Assembly: GCF_040807025.1 (NCBI RefSeq)
Contig: NC_090967.1
Location: 7,742,001 to 7,806,000, forward strand
Source: Struthio camelus
Taxonomy: Eukaryota; Chordata; Aves; Struthioniformes; Struthionidae
Length of the DNA stretch: 64,000 bases
Direction of reading: 5' to 3'
Below, in pieces: positions 31,101-40,600 of this stretch (positions within the stretch are counted from its first letter, which is position 1; the number at the start of each line of letters is the position of its first letter). The position numbers and the translations under genes were made by a program. Below the pieces are notes generated by a model. The model was not told where the DNA came from. It made no database searches and saw nothing but the letters and a program-made list of their open reading frames with translations.

Positions 31101-34100
31101 CGAGTACCTGAGCGGCAGCAGGAAGAGGAAGGTGGAGGACAAGGACTTCGGCACGGACTACGTGAGCCCCCCGGGGCCGGGGTCGGGGCCGGGGCCGGGG
31201 CCGCCGGCTGGGTGCCGACCCCCCTCTCTGCCTCGCAGGGCAGCGACGCGGACAAGAGCGAGGACAACCTGGTGGTGGATGAGGTCGGTGCGCCGGGGGC
31301 TGGGGTCCGGCCGGAGCCGCCGCCGCCGCCGCCTGCCCTCCCCATCCCCGTCTCTCCGTCCCCCAGGACCCCTCGTCCCCCCACAGCGCCCACTCCTACT
31401 CGTCCCGGGAGAACGGGCTGGAGAAGGTCCCGCTGGGCCGGAAGGAGGCCGCGCCGCTCAGCCCCACCTCCATGGCCTCCTCCAGCAGCGCGTCCCCGTC
31501 CCGCAGCAAGGACGGGCCCGGGGTGAGCGCGCCCGCCGGGGCGGCGGGGCAGCGGGGGGGCGCGCGGGCGCTGACCCCGCGCTCTGCCCCCGCAGGCGGA
31601 GAAGGCCGGCGCCCCCAGCCTGAAGCCCAGCACGCCCACCTCGCAGGAGGCGGCCCCGGGGGCCGCCAGCGGCGCCCCGCAGTTTCGCCCCGCCACCAAG
31701 GCCCTGGACCCCTTAGGTGAGGGGCCGGCGCCGCCCGCGCCCCCCCGGCTCCGCCGCCGCCCCCGGGGCAGCGGGGCCGGAGCGGGGCCCCCTCACCCGC
31801 GTCTCCCTGCAGCCCTGGGCCTGCGCACCCCGCTGGCCGTGCAGAGCCCCTACTCGGCCGCCTTCGGCATGGCGCACGCCGCCGTCAACGGGGACGCGGC
31901 CGGGAGCAGCGCCTACGCCAGCCTGCACCTCGTGTCGCCGCAGCTCAACGGGGCCGCGGCCGCCGGGACCTACGGGCGCTCCCCGCTGGTGAGCGAGGGC
32001 ACCGGGGGGCTGCCGGCCCGGGGGGCGCCAGCCGCCCTCACCCCGTGTCCTCCCCAGGTTGGCTACGACCCGCACCCCCACCTGCGCGTGCCGGGGCTGG
32101 CGGCCGGCGTGCCTGCGGGGACGTCGGGGAAGCCGTAAGTGGGGCAGCGCGCGGGGCTGCCGCCGGGTGGGAGGGGAGGTGCGGCCGGGCCCCCCGCGCC
32201 CCGCTGGCCCTTCCCCGCTCTGCCCCTTCCTTTCCAGCGCCTACTCCTTCCACGTCAGCGCCGACGGGCAGATGCAGCCGGTGCCCTTCCCGCCCGACGC
32301 CCTCGTCGGCTCCGGCATCCCCCGCCACGCGCGGCAGCTCCACACGCTGACCCACGGCGAGGTGGTCTGCGCCGTCACCATCAGCAACTCCACGCGGCAC
32401 GTCTACACCGGGGGCAAGGGCTGCGTGAAGGTGTGGGACGTGGGGCAGCCGGGCACCAAGACGGCCGTGGCGCAGCTGGACTGCTTGGTAAGGGGGGCGC
32501 TGGGGGCGCCGGTGGGGATGGGGCCGGTCCGGTGCCCCCGGGCAGCCGGCGGCGTTGGCGCCTGCTTCGGGGCCGCCCGGGGACCGGGACGGGCGCGTGC
32601 AGGGTGCAGCACGGCCTTGGCAGGGGCGTCCTGCCAGGGGCAGCGGCGCAGGTCAAATGGTCGAAAGGGCTTGGAAAGGCCTGGGAGAAATTCCTGGAAG
32701 AGCGGCCCAGAGGTGGCTAATAAATCTGCCGCAGCGGAGACTGCTGGCTTCCGTCTTGGAAACTCCCTGACCGCCGGCTGCGGGCGGCCGGGTGGGCTGC
32801 GACCGGGCCCGGGAGCCCGCTCTTTGCGTGGCTTGTTTCCGGGGGGGGCGGGCTCCGGGGTGGCCCCTCCACCGGCCTGCGGGGTGCCTGGAAGCGGTAG
32901 CCAGGCAATGGGGACAGACTCGGTCTTTGCAAGCGACATCGCTGCTTGCGGTGGCCTCGGGGCTGCGCTGGCCTCCCCGAGCAGCCCCTTGGTTGGGGCG
33001 AGGTCCTGCACAGGCTGAGGCGTCACTTGCACCCAGCTCTGTCCTTGTTTCCGCTTTTGCTTGCGCGAGTCTGGCTGGCCAGGAGGGAGAACTTCTATTT
33101 CTTTTATAAATAAATTAAATGGACTGTCAGACCACAGTAGCTCGCTAGAGCCGAGCTCGAGGCACGGCCATCACCTGAGAGTATTTTTAACCTGTGTTCT
33201 TTGGGTTATTTTAAACGGGTGGCTGGGATCGGAGTCCTCATGCCTGCTTTGAACAGCCCCAAGCCAAGCCCTCCTCGTTTCTACTTGCTGGCCTTGGGGC
33301 CTGGGCAGCCTGACAAATATTATTCCTGGAGCGGTGCTGACCTTGAGGATACAGATGCATAAACAAGGAAATGACTGAGTCATGAAAATTTCAAGCCGCA
33401 TCAGAAATTCAGGAGTTGGGGGGGGTGGGGGGGGGGACACAACAGTGTGTTAGCGCTGTCGCGGCCCTGCCCGGCGGCCACGCTCTGCTCCGGGCTGTTC
33501 GCTGCGCGGGACGAGCTCGCAGCCGGGGCAGCAGTGCGCCCGTCACTGCGGTTCGGTGCAGCTGAGGCACACGGGAGTGAAGGGACAGCACCGGGGTGGC
33601 AGAGAGGTGACACCCTGCGTGTCCCCTGGGCTGTGCACCAGCAGCCCTCGCTGCCTGCCCCGTGCTGCTCTCCCGTCCCCCCAGGGGCCTGGCTGCATCC
33701 CGGGTCCCCGGAGCTGCAGCGCTGCAGCCGGAGTCGGGCACGAGCCGGCAGCGCGGGACGGCTGCAGGAGCCCGGGAGCGGAAGGGGGGCTCACGGGGGC
33801 CTCCCTCTCCCCCCGCCGCCCAGAACCGGGACAACTACATCCGCTCCTGCAAGCTGCTCCCCGACGGCCGGAGCCTCATCGTGGGAGGGGAGGCCAGCAC
33901 CCTGTCCATCTGGGACCTGGCTGCCCCCACGCCCCGCATCAAGGCCGAGCTCACCTCCTCCGCGCCCGCCTGCTACGCCCTGGCCATCAGCCCCGACGCC
34001 AAGGTCTGCTTCTCCTGCTGCAGCGACGGCAACATCGTGGTGTGGGACCTGCAGAACCAGACGCTGGTCAGGTGAGGGCAGGGCTAGGGGCCCGGCGGCC

Positions 34101-37639: not shown

Positions 37640-40600
37640 TCAGTACACCACTTCGTACACAGTGGCCTTCTTGTCACCTGAGCCCGTAACGATAAACTTG
37701 TCGTTGATGGAGATGTCGCAGCTCAGCACAGATGAAGACTCTTTGGACTGAAAGAGAGAGAAGGGCTGAAGGCCCTGATGGACTAAGGGTCCTTCATACT
37801 GAGGGACAAAGCCCTCCCCCTCCCCCCCCCCCCCAAACACGCTCCCTGCACATGGCAGGACCTGCCTCACCTGGAAGATGCTGGCTCCATAGGGTGTCCG
37901 CCAGGCATTCAACAGGTTGTCCTTCCCCGTGCTCACAAACCACTTCCCTGTGGCAAAAGACAAAGTGGCTCAGTGTCTGGGACACCTTCTATGGGTCTGA
38001 GCGCTGGGGAACCACAGGGACGCAGCTGGTCTGGGGCTGCAGACAGCCACCCTGTTCCAACAGCTACACGGCCAAAGCAGAAAAGTGGCTCTCCTACCAC
38101 AGGAGGCGAACTTGAGGGACAGGACACAGCTCTCGTGGAGGTGCAGCTGGTATTTCTCAGGTTTGGTCACATGCAGGATCTCCACGTTGCTGCTCTCCAT
38201 GCCGACGGCGAGCCACTCGCCCGTGGGGCAGTACCCCAGGGAGAAGATCTGGGGAGGAGGCCGGGTCAGGTACCAGCCCCATGATGGTCCCGGCCAGCCC
38301 CACGATGGTCCCAGCCAGCCCCAGCCCCTACCTGGGAGCTGAAGTCATGCTGCTGCAGCTGACGCCCTTCCCGCAGGTCCCAGCAACGCACCGTGTTGTC
38401 CAGACCCCCTGTCCACAGCTTGGTGCCATAGTTAGAAATATCAATGCAGCTTGCACCATCCGTGTGGCCTTGAAACTGCCTGGGAAAGAGGGAGACAGAA
38501 AGCACAAGCACGCGGCAGTCAGGGCTGCCGGTACCTGCAGAGGCCAGCTGAGACCCGGGCAGCCAGGAGAGCTGGAGATCCCTGCTGCATCCCATGGCCG
38601 GGCTGGACCACGGGGATAGAAATAGAGCAGGAAAACCCCTTTCATAGAGCTCCTTGAGCTAAAAAAGTACCCCAGACTCCCCAGGAGCTGGCATCCCTCC
38701 CCCCTTTCCCTGCCCTGGTCCGCAGCCCTCTGCCCAGGGCTCACCTCACCATGGTCTGGTTCTGCAGGTCCCACACCACGATGTTGCCGTCGCTGCAGCA
38801 GGAGAAGCAGACCTTGGCGTCGGGGCTGATGGCCAGGGCGTAGCAGGCGGGCGCGGAGGAGGTGAGCTCGGCCTTGATGCGGGGCGTGGGGGCAGCCAGG
38901 TCCCAGATGGACAGGGTGCTGGCCTCCCCTCCCACGATGAGGCTCCGGCCGTCGGGGAGCAGCTTGCAGGAGCGGATGTAGTTGTCCCGGTTCTAAATTG
39001 GGATTATGGGGAACAGGACAAGCGCAAGAGGAGCTGATCAGTGCTCAGGGTGTGGGAGAACTACGTCCCTTTTTCATTACCGGCGTGAAAAGAGCTTCTA
39101 CCCCTTCTCAGGGTAGCAGGGACATATTCCTCTTCCCAGCCTCCACAAAGTGTCTTTCTGTTCTCCCGCCTTACCAAGCAGTCCAGCTGCGCCACAGCCG
39201 TCTTGGTGCCCGGCTGCCCCACGTCCCACACCTTCACGCAGCCCTTGCCCCCGGTGTAGACATGTTGCGTGGAGTTGCTGATGGTGACGGCGCAGACCAC
39301 CTCGCCGTGGGTCAGCGTGTGGAGCTGCCGCGCGTGGCGGGGGATGCCGGAGCCGATGAGGGCGTCGGGCGGGAAGGGCACCGGCTGCATCTGCCCGTCG
39401 GCGCTGACGTGGAAGGAGTAGGCGCTGGAAAGGAAGGAGACAAGAGGACTGAGAACTCCCTGCATGGAGGAGCCAACTTCTCCCATTAACCAGCCTAGAG
39501 CCAGGTGGAGGGTCTTTGGGGCAGTCTCACTAATGAGGGATGCGATCAGCTGTTTCCTTGTGATCACCAAATGCCAGCAACTGAAGCCCAGCTATGAAAG
39601 GACAAAGCTGGACTCCGAGCTGGAGATAAACTCCAGCCAGGCCTCCCCATGTCCCACAGGCTGCAAAAAGGGGCCATGGGGGGAGGAGACCCTCCTTGCG
39701 CCTGGCACATGCTGGCCCGCTTGGCCATTCACCCACCCTCCCTGCAGCCTGCAAGTTTGGCCACACTTACGGTTTCCCTCCAGGGATGGTGGAGAGTGAA
39801 GAAGAGAGTGAGGAAGCCCTCAGGTGAGGGTGAGACTCGAAGGCCACCTGCACAAAGCAAAGGGAGCCTGATGCATGAAACGCCAAGATCCCCAAGAGGG
39901 GACATGAAGGCAGGCACGTGCCTTTTCTCCCACATACCCCAGGACAGGGTTAGAACTGCTTTGGGGAAGATTCCTGCTTGCTGCTTCCTCCCACGTTCAA
40001 GTGACAACGGCCAAAAGGGGCTCCCAGCCAAAGAAACAGCTTCACACTGATGGGAACCTCTGGGGGCTTCTCAGAGAGCTCTGCTGCCTCCACTTGCCCC
40101 CCAAATCCAGGCTGCCTCCAGAAGGGAGCCCTTCCCTATGGATTCAATCGAGCTCACTGCAGGAATGCAACTATCACACCCTGGGCAGCACGGGGCAGGC
40201 AGCAGAGACGGCACGCGCCAGCGGCCTGGGCCAGCGACTCACCATCGGGGACCGGCCGTACATCACAGTGCTGCTGACTTGTGGGGAGAGGTGGATGCCC
40301 ATATACATGCTGGGGGCCGTGAGCTCGCCGTTGAGGGTGGCATGAGGCACCATCCCGAAGGAGGACGTGTAGGGGCTGGACACGCTCAGCGGGCTGCGGA
40401 GAGCTGCGCAAGGAAAGGCTGTTCATTGACCCTGATGGGTGCGAGAGCTTCACCGGGGCAAAAGGGCACTGGCACCGAACCGCGGCTGCGAGAGGCAGTG
40501 TCCCCCTGACACAGGGCCCAGGCAAGGCTGGCACAAGCCAGAGGATAAGGAGGAGGGCAGGCAGCTTACAGCCAAGACGTGGGTGGTGCGTGGGGCTGTA

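Follow-up and report, generated by a model that had tools for sequence, protein, structure and literature searches.

Two Groucho/TLE genes in the 64,000-nucleotide stretch of the Struthio camelus genome analysed here (the window), TLE2 and a TLE gene in the TLE6 position (T6), are ancient convergent paralogues that, judging from their sequences, very probably exchange sequence within their chromosome, through interlocus gene conversion at the DNA level, in exons 15-18 and, less surely, in exon 19. A first-pass annotation of this DNA had proposed gene conversion, and the proposal is supported by silent-site identity that is limited to exons 15-19, by a shared intron 17, by a control comparison with TLE3 and by a further case in the pair TLE1/TLE4.

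Both genes are intact, with complete open frames and AG/GT at 19 of 19 introns in each, and they converge. The features are:

25140-35531, + strand: T6, 20 coding exons, 759 aa, with open frame and splice sites
32238-32487, 33824-34071, 34265-34412, 34496-34646, 35082-35158, 35424-35531, + strand: exons 15-20 of T6
56148-37640, - strand: TLE2 (T2), 20 coding exons, 742 aa, with open frame and splice sites
39424-39175, 38992-38745, 38479-38332, 38248-38098, 37947-37871, 37747-37640, - strand: exons 15-20 of TLE2
63714-63977, - strand: open frame without a Pfam match, read as the exon-7 region of TLE5/AES, the next gene after TLE2

T6 matches the Pfam family PF03920 (TLE_N, E 5e-64) as well as WD40 repeats, and all 326 residues of its propeller align with the human TLE1 propeller (1gxr); with PF03920 and WD40 in one open frame each, T6 and TLE2 have the full-length Groucho/TLE corepressor architecture. 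We take the frame beyond TLE2 to be TLE5/AES from its resemblance to that gene. Further along the same contig (C26) lie a TLE-like exon-5 match (C26:7808100) and G-alpha exons of a GNA11/GNA15-like pair (C26:7843709-7849436 and 7862017-7862549). The human order has TLE6 convergent with TLE2 and beside TLE5 and the GNA11/GNA15 pair, and T6, which is convergent with TLE2 and has a TLE5-like exon and a G-alpha pair nearby, matches this expectation. We infer that T6 is the TLE6 orthologue. By eye, exon 20 reads CDVS in T6 and in the PDB TLE6 chains 8x7v and 9l4k, FDMT in the PDB TLE6 entry 9l4j, and CDIS in TLE1, TLE2, TLE3 and TLE4 of this genome. As to whether T6 and TLE2 are sister genes or each goes with another of TLE1, TLE3 and TLE4, the exons disagree: in exon 5, TLE2 goes with TLE4 (AEIV) and T6 with TLE1 and TLE3 (TEIA), but exons 7 (by eye) and 20 have states common to T6 and TLE2.

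T6 and TLE2 differ at 5/250, 3/248, 5/148, 5/151 and 4/77 nt in exons 15 to 19 and at 28/108 nt in exon 20, which reproduces the earlier counts; likewise, the first difference in exon 16 falls at nt 240, in keeping with the identity claimed for its first 239 nt. The high divergence reported for exon 6 also holds, albeit at 18/75 rather than 17/75 nt, and exon 14 differs at 39/77. Exons 15-19 together differ at 22 of 874 nt and 9 of 146 fourfold sites (dS 0.088), whereas the six equal-length exons outside this run (3, 4, 5, 6, 10 and 20) differ at 90 of 400 nt and 22 of 38 fourfold sites (dS 2.26; Fisher P 4e-29 for the nucleotide counts), with 12 of 16 fourfold sites differing in exon 20. The longest exact run shared by the two genes covers 76 variable sites (CDS 230-487), whereas 2000 permutations gave at most 60 (P<=0.0005, the lowest value that so many shuffles can yield, uncorrected for the 21 gene pairs on which the run test was performed). 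In neighbour-joining trees of single exons (K2P, 300 bootstraps, TLE loci of this genome), T6 and TLE2 group with bootstraps of 100, 100, 97, 100 and 59 in exons 15-19 and of 43 in exon 20; for exon 19, the value of 59 compares with 41 for T6 and TLE3, and conversion of this exon appears less sure, or less recent, than that of exons 15-18. At the protein level, five residues differ in exons 15-19 and five more in exon 20, so the suggestion of one shared propeller was nearly, if not entirely, right. High GC3 was considered as a signal of GC-biased conversion and rejected: TLE3, although it has no partner, peaks in GC3 at exons 15-16 in much the same way.

The near-identity is arranged in four inverted pairs of blocks with 95-98% identity:

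32225-32497, + strand: block 1, T6 arm; exon 15, preceded by 13 matching nt of intron 14 and followed by 6 of intron 15; 98% to partner
39165-39437, - strand: block 1, TLE2 arm
33822-34084, + strand: block 2, T6 arm; exon 16 with 2 and 5 identical intron nt; 98% to partner
38732-38994, - strand: block 2, TLE2 arm
34142-34649, + strand: block 3, T6 arm; 123 nt of 3' intron 16, exon 17, intron 17 and exon 18; 96% to partner
38095-38602, - strand: block 3, TLE2 arm
35080-35164, + strand: block 4, T6 arm; exon 19, flanked by 2 and 6 matching intron nt; the weakest block, 95% to partner
37865-37949, - strand: block 4, TLE2 arm
35424-35531, + strand: exon 20 of T6, not homogenised; 28/108 differences to TLE2 exon 20 (37640-37747)

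Going beyond the first-pass annotation, block 3 contains intron 17, identical at 82 of 83 nt, and the final 123 nt of intron 16, of which 114 are identical. Introns 15, 18 and 19 cannot be aligned between the two genes and have unequal lengths (1336/182, 435/150 and 265/123 in T6/TLE2). The comparison of dS and introns exon by exon, as the first-pass annotation had suggested it, thus favours conversion, with near-identical introns in block 3 only. Outside this block, identity ends 2-13 nt past the exon borders; extensions of this size could be due to splice-site consensus, which leaves block 3 as the only one with real intron content. No third near-identical copy of block 3 was found in the 1.45 Gb assembly, and a protein search with the propeller gave only seven TLE propeller loci among the matches listed; both results favour conversion.

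The genome holds a second convergent pair, TLE4 and TLE1, which lie ~0.56 Mb apart and are present on both of two diverged homologous contigs, C40 and C41. In birds, TLE1 and TLE4 are Z-linked. Given this linkage, the shared gene content, the contig sizes of 70.4 and 89.9 Mb and an identity of 84-90% (over the six main alignable blocks, exons included), C40 and C41 are probably W and Z. The excerpt of PMC6735826 makes no mention of TLE. In exon 15, TLE4 and TLE1 differ at 0/250 nt on C40 and 12/250 on C41, while the gametologues (C40 vs C41) differ at 12 and 18. The exon trees that had been proposed as a check, run here within one genome, group exon 15 by chromosome on C40 (paralogues together in 100% of bootstraps, gametologues in 0%; the C41 paralogues in only 34%) and exons 16-20 by gene, with gametologue bootstraps of 100, 98, 100, 100 and 99 for TLE4 and of 100, 94, 100, 85 and 99 for TLE1. 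The run test gives P<=0.0005 for exact runs on C40, and on C41 0.0015 for exact and <=0.0005 for gap-allowed runs (2000 shuffles, 21 pairs, uncorrected). Here, too, identity stops 2-13 nt beyond the exon. On sequence grounds, exon 15 of TLE4/TLE1 is an independent case of the same conversion signature.

Could exons 15-19 have stayed alike without any exchange, because purifying selection acts on the protein or on signals within the exons? The TLE propeller is indeed very conserved (dN 0.05 and 0.06 to TLE3), but the equally constrained TLE3 has a dS of 0.59 and 0.66 to the two genes in exons 15-19 and differs from T6 at 10/35, 12/41, 8/19 and 14/20 fourfold sites in exons 15-18. Fourfold sites in exon 16 of TLE1 and TLE4 differ at 20/41 and 23/40, and exon 15 is identical between the C40 paralogues, yet differs between gametologues. 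Moreover, protein constraint cannot account for the near-identity of intron 17 and of the 3' part of intron 16, and we give selection without exchange practically no credence. The same holds for the idea that the 3' half of TLE2 was recently duplicated in inverted orientation and that the remainder is older or rebuilt: it would account for five consecutive, highly identical exons on opposite strands, but a recent copy would have brought its introns along, and introns 15, 18 and 19 do not align, while exons 14 and 20 are strongly diverged.

Mis-assembly of one arm from the other is very improbable as well. A high GC content and an inverted arrangement are difficult for assemblers, but each arm has its own introns, residual differences and an open frame, and the blocks, 85-508 nt long, are surrounded by dissimilar sequence in a contig that measures at least 7.8 Mb. 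Conversion with a reverse-transcribed message as the template would explain why identity is mostly confined to exons and, in exon 15 of TLE1/TLE4 as in exons 15, 16 and 19 of T6/TLE2, extends little beyond the splice consensus. We nonetheless regard it as unlikely: block 3 includes intron 17 and 123 nt of intron 16, and no retrocopy with joined TLE exons was found among the 45 best matches of the propeller search.

Under DNA-level conversion between the two genes, the 22 residual differences in exons 15-19 deserve attention, as they cluster around four paralogue-specific residues:

32396-32400, + strand: R/Q island, 3 of 5 nt differ; TLE2 counterpart 39266-39262
34063-34069, + strand: L/M island, 3 of 7 nt differ; TLE2 counterpart 38753-38747
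34307-34316, + strand: D/Y island, 4 of 10 nt differ; TLE2 counterpart 38437-38428
34585-34591, + strand: D/E island, 3 of 7 nt differ; TLE2 counterpart 38159-38153

Eleven of the 21 gaps between residual differences are at most 10 nt long (4.7 expected, P 0.0007), and of the 17 synonymous differences, 9 have a nonsynonymous one no more than 10 nt away, where 2.0 would be expected (P 1e-4). The first-pass annotation had not noted this clustering. Such clustering is expected if selection protects the four residues, and the islands nominate these as residues that may tell the paralogues apart. TLE3 is matched by T6 at 16 of the 22 positions and by TLE2 at 3, although the 16/22 match may partly reflect composition, both sequences being GC-rich there.

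We envisage that a break in one arm would be repaired by copying from the inverted neighbour, and that copying would end, or be rejected, where the introns no longer match. The process would recur; the first-pass annotation had left open whether conversion was recent or recurrent, and recurrence is the better reading than one recent event, because non-homologous introns lie between the converted exons and these have diverged to unequal degrees. Net flow would run mostly from TLE2 to TLE6 in the window, a direction suggested by the residues of human TLE2, and from TLE4 to TLE1 on C40. Selection would remove conversions covering the four paralogue-specific residues and leave short islands of old differences; the outcome would be two proteins that differ in their Q/GP/CcN/SP parts and have almost the same WD40 propeller.

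A crossover between the inverted arms, which would swap the 3' ends and thereby invert the spacer and exchange exon 20, was also considered. It is not supported, though the grounds are weak: exon 20 of TLE2 has the N and VVY states of human TLE2, and T6 has CDVS.

More tentatively, and with doubts prevailing, TLE6-TLE2 and TLE4-TLE1, each beside a G-alpha pair, might go back to a single pair that existed before the vertebrate genome duplications. Exon-limited conversion, involving exon 15 in both pairs, might have re-stamped the propellers since, independently on an autosome and on C40/C41 (W and Z if the label holds), with selection holding the four islands. T6 might then have stayed a canonical corepressor because the TLE2 propeller was re-copied into it, and mammalian TLE6 might have become an oocyte protein only after escape.

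Domain-level homogenisation in a developmental corepressor family would leave one common propeller and let the N-terminal and linker parts diverge freely. Propeller-based trees would give a false picture of TLE2/TLE6 and, for exon 15, of TLE1/TLE4. With arms 2-7 kb apart in one and genes ~0.56 Mb apart in the other, the two pairs also constitute a natural experiment on how distance and homology length relate to conversion.

Interlocus gene conversion is a known process; our literature search found no paper on gene conversion in TLE genes, and 'TLE' does not occur in the main text of PMC2720389, which describes the concerted evolution of the mammalian pairs BMP8A/B, DDX19A/B and TUBG1/2. Like the TLE genes, these mammalian pairs are old and less than 1 Mb apart, with conversion in consecutive exons and divergence elsewhere, and BMP8A/B is inverted as well, at ~235 kb (PMC2720389). 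They were, however, chosen for >97% identity over consecutive exons and the intron between them, whereas the TLE edges lie mostly at exon borders; furthermore, the TLE case comes from a bird genome and includes a second pair of the family on two chromosomes. Short islands of difference in homogenised paralogues, as in T6/TLE2, are described for the red/green opsins, a case of divergence peaks under gene conversion (PMC3924837), and for the GOT1 paralogues of Tigriopus (PMC3728101); those in T6/TLE2 come from a single genome assembly. If C40 is the W, TLE4/TLE1 resembles the palindromes of Y or W chromosomes (PMC3403216), in that inverted copies on a sex-limited chromosome would be copied from one another within it, but its members are old paralogues ~0.56 Mb apart that clearly share only exon 15. 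Finally, unlike in the Z-W conversion of birds (PMC4278454), the TLE exchange would take place between paralogues rather than gametologues.

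The window (C26:7742001-7806000) holds two full-length, convergent Groucho/TLE genes. Both proteins match TLE_N and WD40 in Pfam, and AG/GT was found at 19 of 19 introns in either gene. The features of the locus are as follows (plain positions are those of the window, C26 its contig):

25140 (start codon) to 35531 (stop), + strand: T6, the gene in TLE6 position; 20 coding exons, open frame, 759 aa
56148 to 37640, - strand: T2 (TLE2); 20 coding exons, open frame, 742 aa
63714-63977, - strand: open frame like a TLE5/AES exon by reading
C26:7843709-7862549: two G-alpha genes, from exon matches

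The 63714-63977 frame has no Pfam match; beyond it, at C26:7808100, lies a TLE-like exon-5 match. Human 19p13.3 carries TLE6(+), TLE2(-), TLE5(-), GNA11 and GNA15 in that order, so T6 occupies the place of TLE6. Elsewhere, the window contains a C-rich 88-nt unit repeated in tandem (10936-11749; 9.1 copies, 95% match), another C-rich array built of units like CCCCAGCTGTGCACC at ~12223-12871, and an open frame (184-582, +) that resembles a MIER-family exon and has no Pfam match.

The first-pass annotation had described exons 15-19 of T6 and T2 as nearly identical, and recounting gave the same differences (5/250, 3/248, 5/148, 5/151 and 4/77 nt), as it did for exon 20 (28/108). Exon 6 is strongly diverged, as claimed, with a count of 18/75 instead of 17/75. 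Pooled, 22/874 nt differ in exons 15-19 versus 90/400 in exons 3, 4, 5, 6, 10 and 20 (Fisher P 4e-29), an outside pool without exons 1, 8 and 14 (equal length; 7/24, 9/17 and 39/77 differences) and exons 2, 7, 9, 11, 12 and 13 (unequal length). Fourfold sites differ at 9/146 versus 22/38, and dS is 0.088 versus 2.26. In exons 15-19, TLE3 has a dS of 0.59 to T6 and 0.66 to T2; silent sites are therefore not kept by protein constraint.

Among the 19 T6/T2 introns, only two align clearly better than shuffled sequence does: intron 16, in its final 123 nt (114/123 identical), and intron 17, along its full 83 nt (82/83). Together with exons 17 and 18 these form one shared stretch (34142-34649/38095-38602), which needs a DNA template; an assembly search with it gave eight matches, of which two are the copies on C26 and the remaining six are exons of TLE1, TLE3 and TLE4 at 78-86%. 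Introns 1, 2, 7, 10, 14 and 18 lie slightly above the best of 20 shuffles, with the excess of intron 14 coming from 13 nt adjoining exon 15. Exact identity extends 13 and 6 nt past the borders of exon 15, 2 and 5 nt past those of exon 16, 3 nt after exon 18, and 2 and 6 nt past the borders of exon 19; outside the shared stretch, identity of this length hardly exceeds splice consensus. Since the exon blocks are parted by unrelated introns, they point to several exchanges, not a single one.

A propeller search of the assembly (1.45 Gb, 262 contigs) gave 45 matches. Seven TLE loci account for 42 of them: TLE3 on C12, the pair on C26, and one convergent pair each on C40 and C41, diverged homologous contigs that are probably W and Z. 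The other three belong to WD40 genes outside the TLE family, on contigs C16 and C3; WD40 matches on a large contig (C3:73395779-73395886) and on another (C106:41672-41779) are equal in score and frame length, possibly a haplotig remaining in the assembly. The search found no partner gene for TLE3. The second pair is placed as follows, with TLE4 (the + gene on C41) and TLE3 as presumptive names:

C41, ~29.75 Mb, + strand: TLE4
C41, ~30.32 Mb, - strand: TLE1; human TLE1 (1gxr) fits
C40:6604500-6614300: TLE4
C40:7157000-7166900: TLE1

Gene conversion appears to have acted in this second pair too. The C40 genes converge ~0.56 Mb apart, and their exons 15 differ at 0/250 nt, those on C41 at 12/250; between the contigs, the gametologues differ at 12 (TLE4) and 18 (TLE1) sites. 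The identity of the C40 paralogues reaches past the exon by 2 nt on its upstream side and by 12 nt on its downstream side, and the flanking introns, read by eye, resemble the gametologue. In exon 16, the paralogues differ at 37/248 (C41) and 31/248 (C40) nt, the gametologues at 3 and 9. In neighbour-joining trees (300 bootstraps per exon), exon 15 gives a support of 100 to the grouping of the C40 paralogues, 34 to that of the paralogues on C41 and 0 to that of the gametologues; for exons 16, 17, 18, 19 and 20, gametologue support is 100, 98, 100, 100 and 99 for TLE4 and 100, 94, 100, 85 and 99 for TLE1. At the 12 exon 15 sites that split the C41 copies, C40 TLE1 carries the TLE4 base nine times and the TLE1 base three times, with six of seven such sites in the first 34 nt being TLE4-like; it also has S, the TLE4 state, where C41 TLE1 and human TLE1 (1gxr) have T. 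On these grounds, the exchange on C40 appears to have run from TLE4 to TLE1. Fourfold differences between TLE1 and TLE4 number 5/18 and 6/18 in exon 17, 3/17 and 4/17 in exon 20, and 20/41 and 23/40 in exon 16; the lower divergence of exons 17 and 20 perhaps reflects older exchanges.

Permutation tests of all 21 gene pairs (P values uncorrected) gave P<=0.0005 for T6-T2 and for TLE4-TLE1 on C40 (tract CDS 1-259); TLE4-TLE1 on C41 reached 0.0015 with exact and <=0.0005 with gap-allowed matching (tract CDS 25-259). The cross pairs C41 TLE4-C40 TLE1 (0.0010, gap-allowed) and C41 TLE1-C40 TLE4 (0.006) are low, as expected from a shared exon 15, and the TLE1 gametologue signal (0.0025) is the exon 15 change viewed from the opposite side. 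We put the T2-TLE3 value (0.0015) down to a putative effect of base composition. Values between 0.01 and 0.05 were obtained for T6-TLE3, for TLE3-TLE4, and for pairings of T6 and of T2 with some of the TLE1/TLE4 copies.

In exons 15-19, T6 and T2 agree at 18 residue columns at which both are unlike TLE1, TLE3 and TLE4, mostly in presumptive human TLE2 states. They differ at five (V/I, R/Q, L/M, D/Y and D/E); at the last four, T6 shows the state of TLE1, TLE3 and TLE4, and T2 presumably that of human TLE2. From these shared and unlike columns, T6 looks like a TLE6 gene with a TLE2 propeller in which four old residues remain. The 22 nucleotide differences are clustered: 11 of the 21 gaps between them are <=10 nt, where 4.7 would be expected (P 0.0007). 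Among the 17 synonymous differences, 9 fall <=10 nt from a nonsynonymous change, where 2.0 would be expected (P 1e-4). Five pairs served as controls for this proximity; one lacks nonsynonymous differences, and the remaining four are, as plain ratios, 1.1- to 1.3-fold above expectation (2/32, 22/89, 42/86 and 51/90 versus 1.6, 16.5, 37.7 and 45.4). Divergence peaks around selected sites have been described as expected for paralogues under conversion (PMC3924837). It is also possible that the four islands of difference around these residues are patches left unconverted by chance, or clustered mutation, with no selection acting on them.

G-alpha exons adjoin TLE4/TLE1 (C41:28849493-29050698) as others adjoin T6/T2 on C26; by exon sets, two genes stand beside each convergent pair, presumably GNAQ/GNA14 on C41 and GNA11/GNA15 on C26. 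As two G-alpha pairs thus adjoin two convergent TLE pairs, the data suggest that both arrangements are older than the vertebrate genome duplications and are paralogous blocks stemming from these; sequence outside the blocks leaves the age of the pairs undecided. The exchanges would most likely have arisen by double-strand-break repair with synthesis off the inverted neighbour, and an inverted pair escapes the deletions that direct repeats undergo. The blocks, their edges, the intron sequence carried with exons 17 and 18 and the recurrence in a second pair are directly observed; the break, the copying step and selection at the islands we infer. In open-licence PMC full text, we found no report of gene conversion in TLE/Groucho genes or of TLE6 Groucho evolution with synteny, and none of the papers that a looser search on the TLE1/TLE4/TLE6 vertebrate paralogon listed concerns conversion, as judged by title or abstract start. 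Closest in kind to the TLE pairs are BMP8A/B, DDX19A/B and TUBG1/2 (PMC2720389).
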